Of a DNA stretch of 50,953 nt, positions 43,920 to 50,953 are shown one piece after another. Both the position numbers and the translations under genes were made by a program. Numbering within the stretch: the first letter of the stretch is position 1; each line of letters begins with the position of its first letter. The stretch spans positions 1 to 50,953 of the forward strand of contig CAMAPL010000017.1 of the NCBI GenBank assembly GCA_945860165.1, read 5' to 3'. The notes beneath the pieces were generated by a model that was not told where the DNA came from, searched no databases, and worked only from the letters and a program-made list of their open reading frames with translations. This stretch comes from Rhizobium sp. Q54. Its GTDB lineage: Bacteria > Pseudomonadota > Alphaproteobacteria > Micropepsales > Micropepsaceae.

Positions 43920-44621
43920 CTATTTCGCGATATAGCCGCCATCCACCGGCAGCACCGTGCCGGTGATAAAGCCGGCGGCGTCGGAACACAGAAACACCAC
44001 CGCGCCACCAATGTCTTCCGGTTTTCCCCAACGCCCGAACGGGGTGCGGGCGATGATGGCGTCGGAACGGTCCTTGTCCGCCATGGCCGCCCTGGTGAGA
44101 TCGGTTTCGATCCAGCCCGGCGCGATGGCATTGACGCGAATGGCCGGCGCCCAGGCGACCGCCAGCGACTTGGTCAGCTGCACCACGGCGCCCTTGGAGG
44201 CGGTATAGGCCGGCGTCAGCGGCGCGCCGAAGAAGGACCAGAGCGAGGCGGTATTGACGATGGCGCCGCCGCGCTTTTCCAGCAGCGGTTTCGCCGCCAT
44301 GCACATGCGCATGGTGCCGGTGAGATTGACGTCGATCACCTTCTGGAAACCGGCGATGGAGAATTCCTTGCCTTCGCGCAGTATGGTTCCGGCGCAATTG
44401 ACCAACGCATCCAGCCGCGTGACGGAACCCATGAGGTGTGCGACTTCCGCGTCGCTGGTGACGTCCAGACACACGGCCCTGAGATGGTCCTGTGACGGAA
44501 CCGACGCGACCTCATCGGTGGTCAGCCCGGTGACGGTGACGCCATAGCCAGCGGCCAGCATGGCCTGGGCGATACCCCAGCCAATCCCCCGCGCGCCGCC
44601 CGTAATCAGGACCTGTTTCAT
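43920..44621 (-). CDS. Short-chain dehydrogenase/reductase
   Basis: 233 aa from ATG 44621. Motifs: ITGGARGIGWGIA (about 6-18), CLDVTSD (about 50), NCAGTIL (about 75), TASLWSFFGAPLTPAYTASK with Ser, Tyr and Lys of the catalytic set (about 122-141), and APGWIETDLT (about 165). The end GGAVVFLCSDAAGFITGTVL followed by PVDGGY is typical. It is first in a two-gene unit with the cupin. Substrate unknown. It is the last chromosomal gene before the integrated element. Confidence 0.88.
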   Translation of the reverse strand: MKQVLITGGARGIGWGIAQAMLAAGYGVTVTGLTTDEVASVPSQDHLRAVCLDVTSDAEVAHLMGSVTRLDALVNCAGTILREGKEFSIAGFQKVIDVNLTGTMRMCMAAKPLLEKRGGAIVNTASLWSFFGAPLTPAYTASKGAVVQLTKSLAVAWAPAIRVNAIAPGWIETDLTRAAMADKDRSDAIIARTPFGRWGKPEDIGGAVVFLCSDAAGFITGTVLPVDGGYIAK

Positions 44622-44657
44622 ACGGGCACTGTAAGACACTGATTTCAGGGGGGAAAG

Positions 44658-44707
44658 TGGTGGGTGATGCAGGGATCGAACCTGCGACAAGCTGATTAAG
44701 AGTAAGC
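44658..44707 (-). tRNA. tRNA-Lys(CUU) 3' fragment (attachment site)
   Basis: On the minus strand the sequence has an anticodon loop CTCTTAA (anticodon CTT), the 3' anticodon stem TCAGC, a variable loop TTGTC, a perfect T-arm GCAGG/CCTGC with TTCGATC, the acceptor strand ATCACCC, then A and CCA ending at 44658. The 5' half is absent: beyond the anticodon stem (GCTTA, one mismatch) there is no D-arm or acceptor 5' strand. This is the signature of an att site made by integration into a tRNA 3' end. It is not expected to make a functional tRNA. Confidence 0.8.
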
Positions 44708-44896: not shown

Positions 44897-46150
44897 ATGA
44901 AGCTGACAGAACACAAAATTGCAGGCCTGACGGTAGAAGGTGCCGCTAGGGACCGGCTGGTTTTCGATGATGAACAGCGCGGACTTGCCGTGCGCGTCAC
45001 CGCCAGCGGGGGGCGGACTTATTTAGCTCAGTACACACTCCACGGACAGAAGCACCGCGTCCCCCTAGGGGCCGTTTCGGCGCTCTCACTGGCAAAAGCA
45101 CGCGAGGCGGCCGCAGCTGTCTTGGGGGATGTGGCCCACGGGAAAAACCCCGCTTTGGAGCGCAAAGAGGCCGCTGCAAGGGCTAGGAAAGTCAAAGACC
45201 GGCTGACGCTTGAAGCCCTGATTGCACAGTGGAAAACCCTACACCTGTCCCAGCGCCGCCCACGGTACGCATCCGAGGCGGAGCGGGCTTTACGGTACGC
45301 CTTTAAACGGTACTTGGACCGCGCAGCCGATGACCTCGACCGGGCTACGGTAGTGCGAGTTCTGGATGGCCTTACCTCCGCCGCCAAAGCCAAGGGAAAA
45401 TCAGGCCAGACCAGCCTGAAGGGGACCTCTATCGCAAGCCGGACCGCCGCCTATGGGCGGGCAGCCTTCGCATGGGCAGTGAAGCGTGGCGGCGTCGAAA
45501 ACAACCCGTTTGAGAACCTACCAACTATGGCAACACCGTCCAAGCGGGACCGAGTTCTAAGTGATGACGAATTAGCTAGCGTCTGGCGGGCGGCTGGCGG
45601 AGCGAGCGCCCCATTCGGCCCAATCATCCGCCTGCTGATGCTGACAGGCCAGCGGCGCGAAGAAGTCGCCGGTATAGCTTGGTCTGAACTTTCTGACGAT
45701 CTCACAAGATGGGCCATTCCAGCGTCACGGACAAAAAATGCCGTCCCTCACATTGTTCCGCTAAGTAAACCAGCGCAGGACCTCCTGCGTGGCGCTAACC
45801 AGCAAGGCAAGCTTGTATTCCCCGGCTTGAAGGGAACGCCTTTTTCTGGGTGGGGCAAATCAAAAACCGAACTCGACACAGCGTCCAAGACCTCCGACTG
45901 GCGGATACATGACCTGCGCCGCACTCTCGCTACCGGGCTGCAGCGCCTAGGTGTGAGGCTGGAAGTCACTGAAGCTGTCCTAAACCATGTGAGCGGCAGC
46001 CGCGCCGGTATTGTCGGCGTGTATCAAAGGCATGACTGGGCATCTGAGAAACGGGCTGCGCTGGAGGCGTGGGGGGCGCACGTCTTGGGGCTAGTTGGTG
46101 GTGATGCCGTTTCTACGAAAGTCATTAAAATGGCGCGGAGAGTCCAATGA
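44897..46150 (+). CDS. int: Tyrosine recombinase/integrase (P4 type, DUF4102 arm-binding domain)
   Basis: 417 aa. The N-terminal arm-binding domain (1-90) reads LTEHKIAGLTVEGAARDRLV, LAVRVTASGGRTYLAQYTLH, then VPLGAVSALSLAKAREAAAA. A core-binding domain is about 100-200. The catalytic domain has Arg253 in LTGQRREEVAG, Lys280, HDLRR with His338 and Arg341, His364 in LNHVSGS and the nucleophile Tyr376 in VYQRHDW. All residues are present, so the enzyme should be active. It would integrate and excise the element at tRNA-Lys. GGAG lies upstream of the ATG. It is read away from the adjacent att site. Confidence 0.95.
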   Translation: MKLTEHKIAGLTVEGAARDRLVFDDEQRGLAVRVTASGGRTYLAQYTLHGQKHRVPLGAVSALSLAKAREAAAAVLGDVAHGKNPALERKEAAARARKVKDRLTLEALIAQWKTLHLSQRRPRYASEAERALRYAFKRYLDRAADDLDRATVVRVLDGLTSAAKAKGKSGQTSLKGTSIASRTAAYGRAAFAWAVKRGGVENNPFENLPTMATPSKRDRVLSDDELASVWRAAGGASAPFGPIIRLLMLTGQRREEVAGIAWSELSDDLTRWAIPASRTKNAVPHIVPLSKPAQDLLRGANQQGKLVFPGLKGTPFSGWGKSKTELDTASKTSDWRIHDLRRTLATGLQRLGVRLEVTEAVLNHVSGSRAGIVGVYQRHDWASEKRAALEAWGAHVLGLVGGDAVSTKVIKMARRVQ

Positions 46151-46724: not shown

Positions 46725-47099
46725 ATGCGGGAGAGCGCCTTGCCACAAAAGAAAACGCAACGTAATCACGCTGCATTCAGATCGCAGCCTATCAATGTTA
46801 TGGCCGATACCGGCCAGCAAAAAAACCAGAATGATTCCGCGCCCAACCAAGACGGTATGCAGTTGCCACCGCCGCCCCCGCCCGGAAGCGCCCCATCACC
46901 AAACATAGAGCACGTTACGCTCAGTGAGTTAGCGCAGTGGGCTAGGTGTTCAACCCGGACGATCCAACGCCTGCTGGAAGTTGGGTCAGGCCCGCCCGCA
47001 CTCCACATTTCAAACCGCCGCATCATTTTTCGCGTCGGCGACGTCCGCGACTGGCTTGAGAAAAGGCGCTTTTCGAGACGGGCGCACCCCCAGCTATGA
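46725..47099 (+). CDS. MerR/AlpA-like DNA-binding protein of the integrated element
   Basis: 124 aa from ATG 46725; ATG 46800 would give 99 aa, and neither has a strong ribosome binding site. A Pro-rich linker (QLPPPPPPGSAPSPN) precedes a winged-helix of the MerR/AlpA/excisionase type (about 62-118): HVTLSELAQWARCSTRTIQR, LLEVGSGPPALHISNRRIIF, RVGDVRDWLEKRRF. Such proteins switch integrase expression or act as excisionase in P4-like elements; this role is inferred. Its stop overlaps the start of the primase gene (ATGA). Confidence 0.75.
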   Translation: MRESALPQKKTQRNHAAFRSQPINVMADTGQQKNQNDSAPNQDGMQLPPPPPPGSAPSPNIEHVTLSELAQWARCSTRTIQRLLEVGSGPPALHISNRRIIFRVGDVRDWLEKRRFSRRAHPQL

Positions 47100-49435
47100 A
47101 TATTCAAATGAAACGCCCTTGGGGATTCAACCCAGAGGCTGCCTCAACAGCCGATTACGCCCTTTACTACTGGCAGTCAGGAATGCAGGCCGTCCCAGCT
47201 AAGGTGCCGGGATGCAGGGGCCCATGGAAAAGACCCGATCTACATAGCTGGCAGTACTACACCGGCGATCTTGTCGACAACCTAACATTCACTGAATGGT
47301 TCCCACCGGGCTTTAAGAAGAACGTCGGCATCATAACGGGCGTCGGTGGTCACTGGGTGCTCGATATCGACCTCCAAAAGTATCCAGAAGCTGCGGTGTG
47401 GCTGCAGGCTTTACTTGTCGCGAACAACGACGGCGCGGCGCTCAAAACTGCTACCCAACGCACAGGCGGTGGCGGTCTTCAGCTAGTCTTCAAGGCTCCC
47501 GCCGGTTGGACCCCACCCACCTTCAGGACAGACATAGGCGTAGACATACGCGGCGCCGGCGGCTTTGCGGTTATGCCTCCATCGCTCCACGCATCTGGAA
47601 ACCGCTACGCATGGTTGCCCGGCAAGGAACCATGGACCGTCGGCGTGATAGTTTCTCCAGTTTGGCTTACGGACGCCGTAGATAAGCTGCCTAGGGGCTC
47701 CACCCCCTCCGCCGGCCGGGCTGAGAAGACACCGACGCCAGAACACGCCACCAATTCGTCAGGCCTTCTTGTCGATGGTCGCGAAGATTACATGACCCGA
47801 CTTGTCTGGGTGAAGGTGGTCGACATGCACCGCGCCAATCCGGCACTACCTGACGACACTACTGGCGCCATGAAGGAAGCGTTCCGCGACTACCTGCGCG
47901 AGGTCGGCACCCGGATTGATGAGGCTGGCGTGCAGAAAAATGAATTGCTGGAACGCGAAGGGCGCGGCCTCACCCTCTTCACGAAGAAATGGAAACGCGC
48001 CATCCGACAGTGGGATACGAAGGTTAAGGACGCAGCAAAGGGACAGCAACTCATCTTCAAAAGCGCGGGCGCCGCCCCGGAAAGTCATGGCGACATCAAG
48101 AATGCACGTGTGTTTGCCAGTAAGTGGCGCCGACAATTGCTGTACGTAACAACGAGAGGCCGCTGGTTCATTTGGTTGGATGGTCGCTGGACGCCATGTG
48201 AGAAAGGCGAAGAGCAAGAGTGTGCCAAGGCCACATGCGATGAACTGATGGCCTCCGGGCTAATGGCTTACAAAGCAGACCCGGATAAAGGTAAGCGCCA
48301 AGTCATGGACGCACTCGCCGCGCACCGGCTCCCTCGGATTCTGGCGATGTTGAAGCTTGCCATTTCCGAACCCGGCATGGCGGTAACGGACAAGGAGCTT
48401 GATGCTGACCCCATGCTCCTTGGGGTGGAGAATGGCGTTGTCAATCTTCGGACCGGTGGCTTTCTCCGTAATGAACCGCAGATGCTCATCACCAGATTCT
48501 GTAATGCCAAATTCGACCCCAATGCCAGCTGCCCGAGGTGGATGCAGTTTCTCGTGGAGGTGTTCCAAGGCGACGATGAAACTATCATTTCTCTGCAGAG
48601 GCTACTTGGATACACGCTGACGGGCTGGGTGACCGAGGAGATTCTCGTCATATGCTTCGGCTTCGGCAGTAACGGAAAGTCCATTTTCTCTAACACTGTG
48701 CATCGGATTGTTGGTGGCTACGCAAAAACAGCGCCAGCATCGCTTCTGGCTTCACGCCGGGACGATGACAGCAGCCCGAGGAACGACCTCGCCGCCATGG
48801 CGGGTGCGCGGTACGTCTCCATCAATGAGTATAAGGCCGGCGCTAGGCTTGATGAGCAGGTAGTCAAACAGCTTGCCGGCCGCGAACCAATTGCGGCGCG
48901 ATTTCTCTATCAGGAATTGTTCGAATACCTGCCAACTTTTACAGCTTGGCTGCGCACTAACCACAAGCCGGTTGTAGTGGGCGACGATGACGGGATTTGG
49001 CGGCGGCTGGTAGTCATACCCTTTCGCCGGAAGTTTGAGGAAAGCGAAAAGGACGAACATCTCGAGGAAAAGCTGTTTGCCGAGCGTGACGGAATATTGC
49101 GGTGGATGCTTGAGGGCACGCGCCTGTACCTTAAAGACGGCCTGCAGCTGAGTAAAACGATCAAAGCCGAACAGGCCGCATATCGCAAAGAAAGCGATAT
49201 GCTGGGCGAATTTCTTGAAGAAAAGACGAAACTGGATCCAAGCGTTAGGGCCGAACAATCAGCCATCTTCTCCAGTTGGAAGTGGTGGTGCGAAGAAAAT
49301 GGCACGCGGCATGGATCTAAGAAGTCGTTCTCCCAGCGCATGGCGGAACGCGGTTACCCGGCATGCCAGAGCAACGGCAACCGCTACTACACAGGACTAA
49401 CCCTGCTTGGTATTTTTCCTTCACAGGGCAGGTAG
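47096..49435 (+). CDS. Bifunctional primase-polymerase and D5-type helicase
   Basis: 779 aa. The N-terminal Prim-Pol domain (about 15-195) has the DxD metal motif in HWVLDIDLQ (Asp90, Asp92) and the late acid in GVDIRGAGGFAVMPPSLH (Asp150). The second motif, normally SGGxH, reads GGGGLQLVF with Gln129 in place of His. A linker leads to a D5_N/SF3 helicase (about 440-720): FLVEVFQGDDETIISLQRLL, Walker A GFGSNGKSIFSNT, RYVSINEYKAGARLDEQVVK, then AWLRTNHKPVVVGDDDGIWR and RLVVIPF. This resembles the replication primase of P4-like elements and phages. It would prime and unwind the element's own origin. Confidence 0.92.
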   Translation: MNIQMKRPWGFNPEAASTADYALYYWQSGMQAVPAKVPGCRGPWKRPDLHSWQYYTGDLVDNLTFTEWFPPGFKKNVGIITGVGGHWVLDIDLQKYPEAAVWLQALLVANNDGAALKTATQRTGGGGLQLVFKAPAGWTPPTFRTDIGVDIRGAGGFAVMPPSLHASGNRYAWLPGKEPWTVGVIVSPVWLTDAVDKLPRGSTPSAGRAEKTPTPEHATNSSGLLVDGREDYMTRLVWVKVVDMHRANPALPDDTTGAMKEAFRDYLREVGTRIDEAGVQKNELLEREGRGLTLFTKKWKRAIRQWDTKVKDAAKGQQLIFKSAGAAPESHGDIKNARVFASKWRRQLLYVTTRGRWFIWLDGRWTPCEKGEEQECAKATCDELMASGLMAYKADPDKGKRQVMDALAAHRLPRILAMLKLAISEPGMAVTDKELDADPMLLGVENGVVNLRTGGFLRNEPQMLITRFCNAKFDPNASCPRWMQFLVEVFQGDDETIISLQRLLGYTLTGWVTEEILVICFGFGSNGKSIFSNTVHRIVGGYAKTAPASLLASRRDDDSSPRNDLAAMAGARYVSINEYKAGARLDEQVVKQLAGREPIAARFLYQELFEYLPTFTAWLRTNHKPVVVGDDDGIWRRLVVIPFRRKFEESEKDEHLEEKLFAERDGILRWMLEGTRLYLKDGLQLSKTIKAEQAAYRKESDMLGEFLEEKTKLDPSVRAEQSAIFSSWKWWCEENGTRHGSKKSFSQRMAERGYPACQSNGNRYYTGLTLLGIFPSQGR

Positions 49436-49530
49436 GGCGGGATGAGAGGCTATTTCGGTAAAGTCCATAATATTTCTTCTCATAAGGGGACTTTACCCAA
49501 ATGCCCTTACATCCCGCCCTACCTGCCCTG
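49424..49530. repeat. Nested inverted repeats at the 3' end of the primase gene
   Basis: A perfect 21-bp inverted repeat pairs 49424-49444 (starting CAGGGCAGGTAGGGCGGG) with 49510-49530. Inside it, a 10-bp pair, GGTAAAGTCC at 49457-49466 and GGACTTTACC at 49488-49497, sits around an AT-rich loop. The outer left arm contains the primase stop codon. No U-run follows, so it is not a simple terminator. It could be a replication origin structure, a processing site or an operator. Confidence 0.85.
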
Positions 49531-49568
49531 CATGGCTATCCCCTCAACCCACTCACAAGGAGTCCGAC

Positions 49569-50150
49569 ATGCCCTACACTTATGAAACCTGCCACGAAGC
49601 CTTCCAACGGGGTCTAGATGACCGCAAGGCCTACCCCCTTACGTTGGGCGATTACAAAATACGCGAGTCCCTAAGGGGCCTAGGGCGCATCTCCGAGACC
49701 CTTCGCAATATCGCCGAAGATCTCAAGTTCAAGAGGCGTGGGTATTACCGCTATTTTGGAGTCTGTACGTCCGACGATGCTGACGTATGGCTTAAGTCCG
49801 TTCCGGCGCAGCTAGCCCTTGACCTTGGTTATAACGTGGTACCGGCAATCAAGGCTTTGGCTCGTGACGGAGTGCCGCCAGCCGTCGTCAACGGGTGTCT
49901 CGCTAGGGCTACCAGGGTAGTACCGGTGATCCTTGATGATTGCGAAGGGGCCCGGATCGCACTCCGTCGCGGCGTAAAGCGCGAGTTGAGGATGATGAAA
50001 ACCGGTGGGTCCACGGTGCAGCCGCTTGTAGACGCAGTGGTGGAGCTGATCGAAGTGACGCTCAGGGACGTTAAGGTTTGGCTTGATCAAGGTTCCCCTG
50101 AGGTCACCGCCAAATACCCAGCGGTTCATCCAGCCAGCCCAACAACCTAA
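49569..50150 (+). CDS. Unknown protein of the integrated element
   Basis: 193 aa with a strong AAGGAG upstream. Mostly helical and basic: HEAFQRGLDDRKAYPLTLGD, RESLRGLGRISETLRNIAED, KRRGYYRYFGVCTSDDADVW, GVKRELRMMKTGG. Two cysteines (CTSDD, DDCEG) show no pairing pattern. No family recognised. Between the nested inverted repeat and the palindrome cluster. A role in replication control is possible but only by position. Confidence 0.65.
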   Translation: MPYTYETCHEAFQRGLDDRKAYPLTLGDYKIRESLRGLGRISETLRNIAEDLKFKRRGYYRYFGVCTSDDADVWLKSVPAQLALDLGYNVVPAIKALARDGVPPAVVNGCLARATRVVPVILDDCEGARIALRRGVKRELRMMKTGGSTVQPLVDAVVELIEVTLRDVKVWLDQGSPEVTAKYPAVHPASPTT

Positions 50151-50161
50151 CAATGTTAGGT
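50145..50161. repeat. Perfect palindrome overlapping a stop codon
   Basis: ACCTAAC and GTTAGGT around AAT. The 5' arm includes the TAA stop (50148-50150) of the preceding gene. Seven paired bases, no U-run. First of three perfect palindromes in the gap before 50278. Confidence 0.8.
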
Positions 50162-50170
50162 CCACACCGC

Positions 50171-50186
50171 CCTGATACGTATCAGG
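50171..50186. repeat. 16-bp perfect palindrome
   Basis: CCTGATACGTATCAGG with no loop, so a two-fold symmetric protein site rather than a hairpin terminator. It lies 20 bp after the stop of 49569-50150. Confidence 0.85.
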
Positions 50187-50219
50187 AACCAGCCCAGCTC
50201 AGCCCCTAGGTCTAACAAG

Positions 50220-50241
50220 GGGCGTGGGAATTCCCACGCCC
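50220..50241. repeat. 22-bp perfect palindrome
   Basis: The left arm GGGCGTGGGAA is followed directly by its complement, giving 22 bp of perfect two-fold symmetry. A weaker CCCCT/AGGGG pair (50203-50207 with 50218-50222) overlaps its left side. It lies 37 bp before the next gene, a position that fits an operator or a replication/partition site. Confidence 0.85.
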
Positions 50242-50277
50242 AGTCATCCAGCCACCGTCTAGCCAGCACGTAGCCCC

Positions 50278-50592
50278 ATGCCCCTCCCATCCGTAGCCAA
50301 GTACGGCGCACTGCAATGTAAAGCCAAGTCCAAGCAGTCTGGTGTGCAGTGCAAGAACCCCGCTGTGACGTCATGGGGTATGAAGGTCTGCAAGTTTCAC
50401 GGGGCCCGAAGGCCGTCATCCATCAAACGTGGTGCCGCCCATCCGGGGTATAGGCACGGTCAGGAGACACTCCCAGCCAAGGCCGAACGTAGTGCGAAGC
50501 TAGCGCAGCTTAGAGACCTAGAGGCTGAGATGGCGATGGTTGGGGTGCTGGAAGGGCCTAGGTGGCGGGGACGGAAGCCGAAGACAGCGTGA
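50278..50592 (+). CDS. HGGxSTG-like small zinc-binding protein
   Basis: 104 aa. The pattern is C (ALQCKAKSKQSGVQCKNPAV), then VCKFHGARRPSS, then HPGYRHGQETLPAKAERSAK. This is the arrangement of HGGxSTG-domain proteins of phages and mobile elements (Cys pairs, C-x-x-H-G, a later R/H-H-G). Here the HGG is HGA, a small deviation. The family has no established function; nucleic-acid binding is inferred from the basic Cys/His-rich character. No strong ribosome binding site before the ATG. Confidence 0.7.
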   Translation: MPLPSVAKYGALQCKAKSKQSGVQCKNPAVTSWGMKVCKFHGARRPSSIKRGAAHPGYRHGQETLPAKAERSAKLAQLRDLEAEMAMVGVLEGPRWRGRKPKTA

Positions 50593-50602
50593 TATTATCA
50601 CG
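50588..50602. repeat. Perfect palindrome overlapping a stop codon
   Basis: CGTGATA, one T, then TATCACG. It includes the TGA stop (50590-50592) of the zinc-protein gene. This is the third gene in the right part of the element whose stop lies inside an inverted repeat. Confidence 0.8.
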
Positions 50603-50744
50603 GCCCTGTAGCCCAACTCTGTCGCTTGATGGAGCGCCAGTCACAGCCATTCCGTGACTCGTCCAGACTCATGCGCCACCACCCGGCGGCACGATTCACA
50701 AGACGCAAACGCCCGTCAGCGGAGTCCGCAGAGTCTGTGTCGCA
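50603..50744. other. Short gap before the autotransporter fragment
   Basis: About 140 bp between the zinc-protein gene and the convergent autotransporter end. No gene seen. No tRNA sequence or copy of the att core is visible here, so it is not evidently the element's right end. Confidence 0.4.
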
Positions 50745-50953
50745 CTACCAGCGATAGGCGACGTTACCCGCTGCTTGGAGGATGGTCGTCCCAGCGCCGA
50801 GCTGACTGTCTAGGCGAACGCCGTATGACAGGCCCGTGGCTTTTTGCGCCTGAAGGTTAAGGCCGAGGACTGCCGTGTCATTGGCGGGCTTGATGCCGTT
50901 AAGCAGGAAGCTGGAGCCGCTAAGCGACTGGAACGAGACCGTGCTGACCGGGC
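50745..50953 (-). CDS. C-terminal end of an autotransporter-like outer-membrane protein (partial)
   Basis: The minus-strand frame enters from the right edge and ends at TAG 50747-50745. The last 69 residues alternate hydrophobic and polar positions in strands: STVSFQSLSGSSFLLNGIKP, NDTAVLGLNLQAQKATGLSY, then GVRLDSQLGAGTTILQAAGN, with the end VAYRW. Terminal aromatic residues in Y-x-W are the BAM recognition signal of beta-barrels, and the layout matches the last strands of the autotransporter barrel. The passenger lies outside the window. It is convergent with the zinc-protein gene. It may be element cargo or host. Confidence 0.6.
   Translation of the reverse strand, partial: PVSTVSFQSLSGSSFLLNGIKPANDTAVLGLNLQAQKATGLSYGVRLDSQLGAGTTILQAAGNVAYRW

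Follow-up and report, generated by a model that had tools for sequence, protein, structure and literature searches.

The replication origins of phage-inducible chromosomal islands (PICIs) lie directly 3' of the primase or Rep gene, where two sets of short repeats flank an A+T-rich region, and deletion showed that the region in this position matters for plasmid replication (PMC6092414). In plasmid pRN1, a stem-loop of 100 nt downstream of the gene for the PrimPol-helicase is essential and keeps its structure but not its sequence; such a stem-loop has been proposed generally for proteins of this kind, with Bordetella phage BIP-1 as a second case (PMC4234260). The origins of Staphylococcus aureus pathogenicity islands (SaPIs) and of the staphylococcal cassette chromosome mec (SCCmec) are likewise located just downstream of a helicase gene (PMC7581432), and other iteron origins are described in PMC7433901 and PMC7145576. 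According to its annotation, phage P4 (NC_001609) requires the crr region in cis for its replication. Here, we describe a 107-bp inverted repeat (49424-49530) across the stop codon of a primase-helicase gene in an integrated element of Rhizobium sp. Q54, found near the end of the 50,953-nucleotide stretch of contig CAMAPL010000017.1 that we analyzed (hereafter the window). Very likely, this repeat is where replication of the element starts, with the origin at the 3' end of the gene that encodes the element's own initiator; the type of origin is an already known one, because PICI origins, the pRN1 stem-loop, and P4 crr share their position and make-up with it.

The symmetry of the large repeat is far beyond chance. 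Its outer 21 bp are perfect, with 49424-49444 pairing with 49510-49530, and the symmetry extends inward to two arms of 43 nt each (49424-49466 and 49488-49530) that are 88% complementary. The arms carry short direct repeats and enclose a second, inner palindrome (Table 1), with an A+T content of 0.76 in the spacer at this locus (L123 in the survey described below). The repeat starts 12 bases before the last base of the primase gene, i.e., in the position immediately 3' of a primase or Rep gene, and the stop codon comes to lie in the hairpin because the reading frame ends inside the first direct repeat. An earlier note on this DNA had pointed to three inverted repeats, each containing a stop codon (of the primase gene, of the following gene for a 193-aa protein, and of a gene for a Cys/His-rich, zinc-type protein), and had suggested, with none of them having a U-run, that they may not be ordinary terminators. 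All three symmetries are indeed in place, and no T run was seen by eye after any of them, which bears out that they are not intrinsic terminators. Folded as RNA, positions 49415-49540 reach -73.2 kcal/mol versus -34.45 kcal/mol (standard deviation 3.54) in 200 shuffles (z -10.95). Such stability and the position between two genes of the same strand would also suit a stable 3' hairpin acting in the transcript, which could protect the primase mRNA, block read-through, or be cut by RNase III. The missing T run speaks against such a function, as do searches of Rfam that gave only matches far below the curated cut-offs (V_AS5, RF02818, with 27.9 bits versus a gathering cut-off of 96).

A related element made it possible to follow the repeat as its sequence changes. 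Searching the 96 genomes of the order with the primase gave matches at 1e-40 or better in eight of them, the window's own genome included. In a genome from another genus of the family (G066), locus L127 encodes a primase that is 70% identical over aa 297-771 and has the same inverted repeat across its stop codon. The near-perfect arms and the short centre might suggest a palindromic insertion, similar to a miniature inverted-repeat transposable element, that sits over the stop codon by accident. We rejected this explanation, which is extremely unlikely, because the genome holds no second copy of the large repeat (its sole further match is its own reverse complement); in addition, the same codon is occupied in L127, i.e., in another genus, with substitutions. 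Among 40 hairpin pairs compared between the two loci, 30 are invariant (one of them gapped in L127), while the 10 varying pairs comprise four changed on both sides, two changed on one side, and four that are unpaired in one of the sequences. Overall, 94.9% of the hairpin cells of both sequences are paired as opposed to 30-51% after displacing the partner strand by 1 to 3 columns. The suggestion of the earlier note that the symmetries could be sites of element-encoded control has therefore gained ground for the large repeat, whose symmetry is kept with paired changes. Identity to L127 varies along the region, with 17/18 columns in the inner stem, 32/42 in the outer arms, 18/25 in the middle part, 12/21 in the centre, 240/343 in the 3' coding part of the primase gene, and 104/225 in a global alignment of the 200 nt that directly follow the hairpin.

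The substitutions in the arms are not scattered. The four columns of the left arm that differ form two pairs that are exactly 9 apart (chance 0.012 under random placement); AGGGCAGGT and AGGGCGGGA of the window correspond to AGTGCGGGT and AGTGCAGGA in the left arm of L127 and to AGTGCGGGA and AGTACAGGA in its right arm. All four repeat units differ in L127, three by a change of AGGGC to AGTGC and one to AGTAC, and the consensus AGKGCRGGW fits seven of the eight units of both loci. Concerted change of direct repeats would be expected of a protein-binding site and is not demanded by an RNA stem, the stability of which does not require that two repeats of one arm change together. The paired changes in L127 as such would fit a transcript hairpin as well, yet the evidence as a whole suggests DNA, in the form of an origin with inverted direct repeats, more than mRNA. 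We consider a transcript hairpin unlikely, and the mRNA-end function suggested in the earlier note is set aside as the main explanation on account of this concerted change. Inverted short repeats beside an initiator gene would fit an operator equally well, by which the primase or another protein of the element controls the next gene or the copy number without the repeats being a start site, and only 38 bp separate the right arm from the start codon of the following gene. However, the same repeat precedes a different open reading frame (ORF) in L127, and the same position matters for replication in P4, in PICIs (PMC6092414), and in pRN1 (PMC4234260), so that an operator is quite unlikely.

The protein encoded up to the repeat has the composition expected from a replication initiator of this kind. 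It matches the Pfam domains PrimPol (PF09250, 1e-18), D5_N (PF08706, 2e-25), and Pox_D5 (PF03288, 3e-4) as well as the NCBIfam family of P4-type phage/plasmid primases (TIGR01613, 1e-78). A profile built from ten primase relatives and searched against solved chains retrieved the primase C962R of African swine fever virus (ASFV) with 6.8e-26, the SaPI5 primase-helicase (7ola) with 2.8e-21, and then poxvirus D5. The last 480 aa were modeled with a predicted local distance difference test score (pLDDT) of 92.9, and VIA-align placed the ASFV PrimPol (9ivf) first (Z 31.4, root-mean-square deviation (rmsd) 3.7 over 445 residues) and the SaPI5 primase-helicase (7om0) second (Z 29.8, rmsd 7.3 over 395 residues), followed by the D5/E5 helicases of poxviruses. 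The last ca. 70 residues of the model run in the order helix-strand-helix-helix-strand-strand, which we read as a predicted winged helix. The known structure of the P4 origin-binding domain was not among the matches listed for the fold search with the whole model, in which the C-terminal domain was not searched alone. At another locus (L135), the PrimPol N-terminal part is 47% identical to the window primase (aa 11-314), and the remainder of the 1212-aa open frame has no match to it, perhaps as a result of domain swapping.

Inverted repeats at this position are not a peculiarity of the window and L127. We examined 104 loci with related primases; L135 has no stop codon, and the other 103 form 72 clusters (single linkage, 80% identity). 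In 71 of these at least one member has 240 nt of downstream sequence, the first such member serving as representative and the window being counted in. Each locus was scored by its best inverted repeat in a stretch that began 45 nt ahead of the stop codon and ended 240 nt past it, with a threshold of 12 that was chosen without having been fixed beforehand. The genome loci were found with the window's protein alone, which as a single query found no relative in the viral contigs; the viral loci were found with an alignment of ten members picked after inverted repeats had been seen in several of them, a possible source of bias. Scores of at least 12 were reached at 43/71 primase ends (42/70 without the window) as compared with 6/207 other gene ends of the same loci, 3/355 shuffles, 2/67 stretches 300-585 nt further on, and 0/70 stretches inside the primase gene. 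At a score of at least 18, the difference was 20/71 versus 0/207 (rank test p 5e-21), and 43/71 primase ends beat all 40 of their own shuffles. Both sources contributed, with 26 of 49 viral representatives and 17 of 22 genome loci (window included) at or above 12. Within the left arm plus 12 nt on either side, 31 of the 43 repeat-bearing loci have a direct repeat at p<0.05 in letter shuffles, with a period of 9 in 17 and of 8-10 in 28 of these 31 loci, from which the window and L127 are absent. Only eight of the 43 have a left arm that reaches over the stop codon, so a stop codon within the repeat represents one variant of a more general neighborhood.

The spacer between the inverted repeats has a median of 53 bp in the relatives, and many of them have separated arrays and no continuous hairpin. 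Inverted direct-repeat arrays around such a spacer, without a tight hairpin, are a further point against a function in the transcript. They also bear on a nick site of the rolling-circle type or a single-strand origin that is extruded as a cruciform, for which the long hairpin of the window would be suited and which others have argued for pRN1 (reported in PMC4234260). Next to these separated arrays, the element has a PrimPol-D5 helicase, and none of the six element proteins that were scanned matches a rolling-circle Rep family in Pfam or PHROG, which makes this explanation very unlikely. The idea that an A+T-rich spacer is general found no support, with a mean A+T content of 0.51 in the spacers and 0.48 in the region across the 43 loci.

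If the large repeat is an origin, the primase-helicase would bind the arm repeats through its C-terminal winged helix after excision of the element, form hexamers on both arms, melt the A+T-rich centre, and then prime, after which a host polymerase could take over and replication would proceed in both directions. The stop codon inside the hairpin would be a by-product of the joining of gene and origin.

Several observations weigh against an origin at this site or against our account of it. At the window locus alone the direct repeat of period 9 is not significant (p 0.13), and in L127 alone it has a p of 0.067 with 9 as the best period. The comparison of homologues for covariation, as proposed in the earlier note, did yield the four compensatory pairs in the L127 hairpin, but covariation as high as that observed arises in 35 of 500 pair shuffles, in what is a weak test of two sequences, and four pairs are lost in one or the other hairpin. 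A second close relative did not turn up: among 385 genomes sampled from the class (a sample that left out the genome of L127), the core pattern occurs only in that of the window, and it was not found in viral contigs. In the survey, 28/71 primase ends score below 12. Similarity of the arms correlates with similarity of the primase C-terminus at r 0.27 over 36 loci (Mantel test), and control coding DNA gives a nearly equal r of 0.23, so that cognate recognition is not separated from common descent by this test, which we do not use as evidence. The contrast is also weaker among 14 isolated phages that we hand-picked for diversity from at least 60 listed, where scores over 300 instead of 240 nt downstream were at least 12 at 10/14 primase ends versus 7/29 other ends. 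The best matches of the initiator, in sequence and in fold, are to the ASFV PrimPol ahead of the SaPI5 protein. Of the experimental precedents, the pRN1 protein is reported to show no specific binding to its stem-loop, and no direct proof of origin function is reported (PMC4234260), and binding by the SCCmec helicase needs direct repeats alone, inverted repeats being dispensable (PMC7581432).

A search for DNA similar to the hairpin gave no match in E. coli or plasmids and one weak match in phages. A loose pattern picked out at least 119 stretches in genome contigs. A single viral hit of an early scan (L001) lies in sequence that reads as integrase coding and is probably due to chance.

The element starts at a 106-bp attachment-site repeat (44602-44707), and the window ends with its contig (C17). 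An intact tRNA-Lys(CTT) gene is found on contig C13 of the same genome (G000:C13:8254-8329), and no whole tRNA gene was found in the window. As inferred from the two attachment repeats, the element probably continues, beyond a gap, at the left end of C13. The genes follow each other in the order integrase, small protein, helix-turn-helix (HTH) protein, primase, large inverted repeat, 193-aa orphan protein, and Cys/His-rich protein (Table 1). Integrase and primase are clearly identified and lie on the same strand. The AlpA-type regulator rests on a match to HTH_17 of 26.4 bits, narrowly below the curated cut-off of 27, and on phrog_66, which is annotated as excisionase and transcriptional regulator. 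The small protein between the integrase and the HTH protein and the 193-aa orphan are without Pfam or PHROG matches, and the 104-aa Cys/His-rich protein, which we call zinc-type from reading its sequence, has no Pfam match and falls into phrog_3678, itself of unknown function. Among the 96 genomes of the order, the 193-aa protein is present in its own genome only and thus has no match in the genome of L127. In L127 the zinc-type protein recurs further downstream (52% identical), and the ORFs that differ between origin and zinc-protein gene (L127:3048-3746 versus window 49531-50592) mark a likely cargo slot. Judging from its sequence, a minus-strand open frame at the window's right end encodes what looks like an autotransporter C-terminus, although the 68-aa fragment has no Pfam match at E 1. 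Positions 50679-50953 and G000:C13:4996-5273 are two copies, 89% similar, of a stretch with such a gene end. The idea that the contig runs straight into C13 via a single autotransporter gene is weakened by this second copy, and the duplication may be the cause of the assembly break at this point.

Table 1. Features of the integrated element in the window, with related sites and loci (G000, the window's genome)
Feature	Position or loci	Strand	Evidence or remark
Attachment-site repeat of the element, 3' part of tRNA-Lys plus flank	44602..44707	.	99% identity over 106 bp to G000:C13:8198-8303
Tyrosine integrase	44897..46150	+	PF00589 7e-13, PF13356 2e-14, phrog_1 6e-53
HTH protein, excisionase/AlpA-like regulator	46725..47099	+	HTH_17 8e-6; phrog_66 4e-6
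PrimPol - D5/SF3-type primase-helicase, probable replication initiator (SF3, superfamily 3)	47096..49435	+	Pfam, TIGR01613, fold match
Inverted repeat, probable replication origin (ori)	49424..49530	.	43-nt arms, 88% complementary; shuffle z; compensatory changes in L127
Two ~9-bp direct repeats (iteron-like), left arm, AGGGCAGGT AGGGCGGGA	49425..49442	+	Includes primase stop codon 49433-49435
Inner palindrome GGTAAAGTCC..GGACTTTACC, 21-nt A+T-rich centre, candidate melting region	49457..49497	.	
The same two ~9-bp repeats AGGGCAGGT / AGGGCGGGA, inverted, right arm	49512..49529	-	
193-aa orphan protein gene, cargo position between candidate ori and zinc-protein gene	49569..50150	+	
Perfect palindrome ACCTAACA-A-TGTTAGGT, arms 8, 1-nt centre, 17 bp	50145..50161	.	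Over stop codon of 193-aa gene
Perfect 16-bp palindrome	50171..50186	.	Absent from the earlier note
Perfect 22-bp palindrome	50220..50241	.	Absent from the earlier note
104-aa Cys/His-rich protein (zinc-type by reading of sequence)	50278..50592	+	phrog_3678 1e-8
Palindrome CGTGATATTATCACG (CGTGATA-T-TATCACG), arms 7, 1-nt centre, 15 bp	50588..50602	.	Over stop codon of zinc-protein gene
CGTGAYANTRTCACG sites	window 50588-50602; G000:C9:325-339; G000:C29:3962-3976; G104:C12:1567-1581; G111:C11:149588-149602		
Loci with CG/CA/TG-alternating spacer	L124, L125, L138, L139, L141, L142, L143, L145, L147, L159, L198, L201, L206, L208		

The large repeat is set apart from the short palindromes downstream by size and conservation, and the two over the stop codons of the 193-aa and zinc-protein genes look unrelated to it. 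The earlier note had suggested that all three symmetries may be one shared feature of mRNA ends, but they do not travel together: the large one is linked to the primase and occurs at many primase ends, and in L127 no inverted repeat with an arm of at least 7 covers the stop codon of the ORF after the hairpin or of the zinc-protein gene, although in the latter case the flank may have been lost, since what reads like transposase sequence follows immediately. Counting palindromes with an arm of at least 7 and a loop of at most 3, and gene stops from ORFs of at least 90 aa with overlaps removed, the whole window has 25 short palindromes that cover 0.8% of it. Four lie in 49531-50953, where the remainder of the window would predict 0.6 (Poisson P 0.003, post hoc), and two of the 45 predicted gene stops touch one, both in this element. 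This local excess is real, though spotted after the fact. Three perfect palindromes of 16 to 22 bp lie within 97 bp at or after the end of the 193-aa gene (50145-50241), and for none of them is there a homologue to compare.

At the end of the zinc-protein gene, the palindrome CGTGATATTATCACG is kept as CGTGACATTGTCACG in remnants on G000:C9 and G104:C12, which share an identical 52-bp stretch, so that we count them as a single double-sided change. Matches to the pattern CGTGAYANTRTCACG number three in the window's genome and one each in G104 and G111, the other 93 of the 96 genomes of the order having none, and the reversed control pattern is found nowhere. Two of the three sites in the window's genome are at zinc-gene ends, and the G104 site is at a zinc-gene remnant. 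The palindrome is probably a protein-binding dyad tied to this element family. The C9 copy lies within C9:158-365, 10 bp after a tRNA-Ser gene (G000:C9:59-148). As a whole, this remnant of a related element (L256, G000:C9:59-365) is 79% identical to window 50562-50781, covering the autotransporter-like end and the zinc-gene tail.

Beyond the single locus, the layout with inverted repeats seems to reach ordinary phages. Repeats are plain by eye in phages AcaML1, PSA, and Adephagia, while phiC31 and Sue2 score at least 12 with repeats that do not look iteron-like. Bordetella phage 003 (Rauchvirus BPP1 by taxonomy) scores just 8.5; BPP-1 belongs to the group with a reported stem-loop (PMC4234260). 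Alternating CG/CA/TG runs, which are prone to form Z-DNA, were seen as a side observation: runs of at least 12 alternating steps are centred between the inverted repeats in 14 of the 43 repeat-bearing loci (Table 1), and among all primase ends 16/71 have such runs versus 0/67 stretches further downstream and 0/70 inside the gene. A wider proposal seems to us about as likely as not: 9-bp repeats in an inverted array, joined to the gene at its 3' end, would be the default origin of D5/P4-type primase-helicases in ordinary phages and satellites alike, whereas in 2018 they were stated to be a hallmark of PICIs. One group would then have a CG/CA-alternating, Z-DNA-prone spacer instead of an A+T-rich one, and the spacer of the window would have become a second palindrome that merges the iteron type of P4 and PICIs with the stem-loop type of pRN1. 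Among the papers listed by literature searches for this wider pattern or for Z-DNA in such origins, one search brought up PMC4234260 and the others nothing on point, which is no proof of their being unpublished. The survey exceeds the cited papers in number and in its reach to ordinary phages. For the window, an odd hairpin becomes a testable replicon, and the suggested rule for finding origins is to look for inverted repeats of period ~9 just past the stop codon of D5/P4-type primase-helicases. Should the broader pattern prove true, it would allow origins to be assigned in many prophages and satellites and would make the connection of iteron origins with the stem-loop origin of pRN1 accessible to experiment.

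The earlier note knew of no named system with this layout, which no longer applies to the large repeat given PICI origins (PMC6092414), pRN1 (PMC4234260), and P4 crr. As in PICI and SaPI origins, the repeat lies just 3' of the primase gene, and two inverted sets of ~9-bp units flank an A+T-rich centre; as in PICIs, the integrase gene and a possible AlpA-like gene adjoin on the same strand, and the element of the window has a tRNA attachment site. Unlike in PICI origins, the hairpin made by the arms is almost uninterrupted and has a second palindrome inside it, and unlike in PICIs, no packaging or interference genes were recognized among the six element genes scanned in the window, past the end of which the element probably extends (PMC6092414 for both comparisons). 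P4 crr, which our survey method recovers with a score of 12.5 at +61 to +135 bp after the alpha stop codon, resembles the locus in that type 1 repeats of 8 bp follow the alpha gene directly, in inverted orientation; the first two of these repeats start 9 bp apart (4314 and 4323). It differs in that P4 has two 120-bp crr copies and a separate annotated ori ca. 4.5 kb away, and alpha carries a TOPRIM-type primase (PMC4234260) where the window primase has an N-terminal PF09250 PrimPol domain. The SCCmec cch2 origin is similar in that a helicase of the D5_N type acts there on repeats just downstream of the operon (PMC7581432). Compared to pRN1, an archaeal Sulfolobus plasmid that lacks iterons according to PMC4234260, the window presents a bacterial integrated element with direct repeats in the arms of its hairpin. 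Both have a stem-loop of ca. 100 nt (107 bp in the window) right after a gene for a PrimPol with SF3 helicase and a winged helix, predicted in the case of the window, and in both the structure of the hairpin is kept while its sequence varies, which for our locus refers to the two sequences of the window and L127 (PMC4234260).

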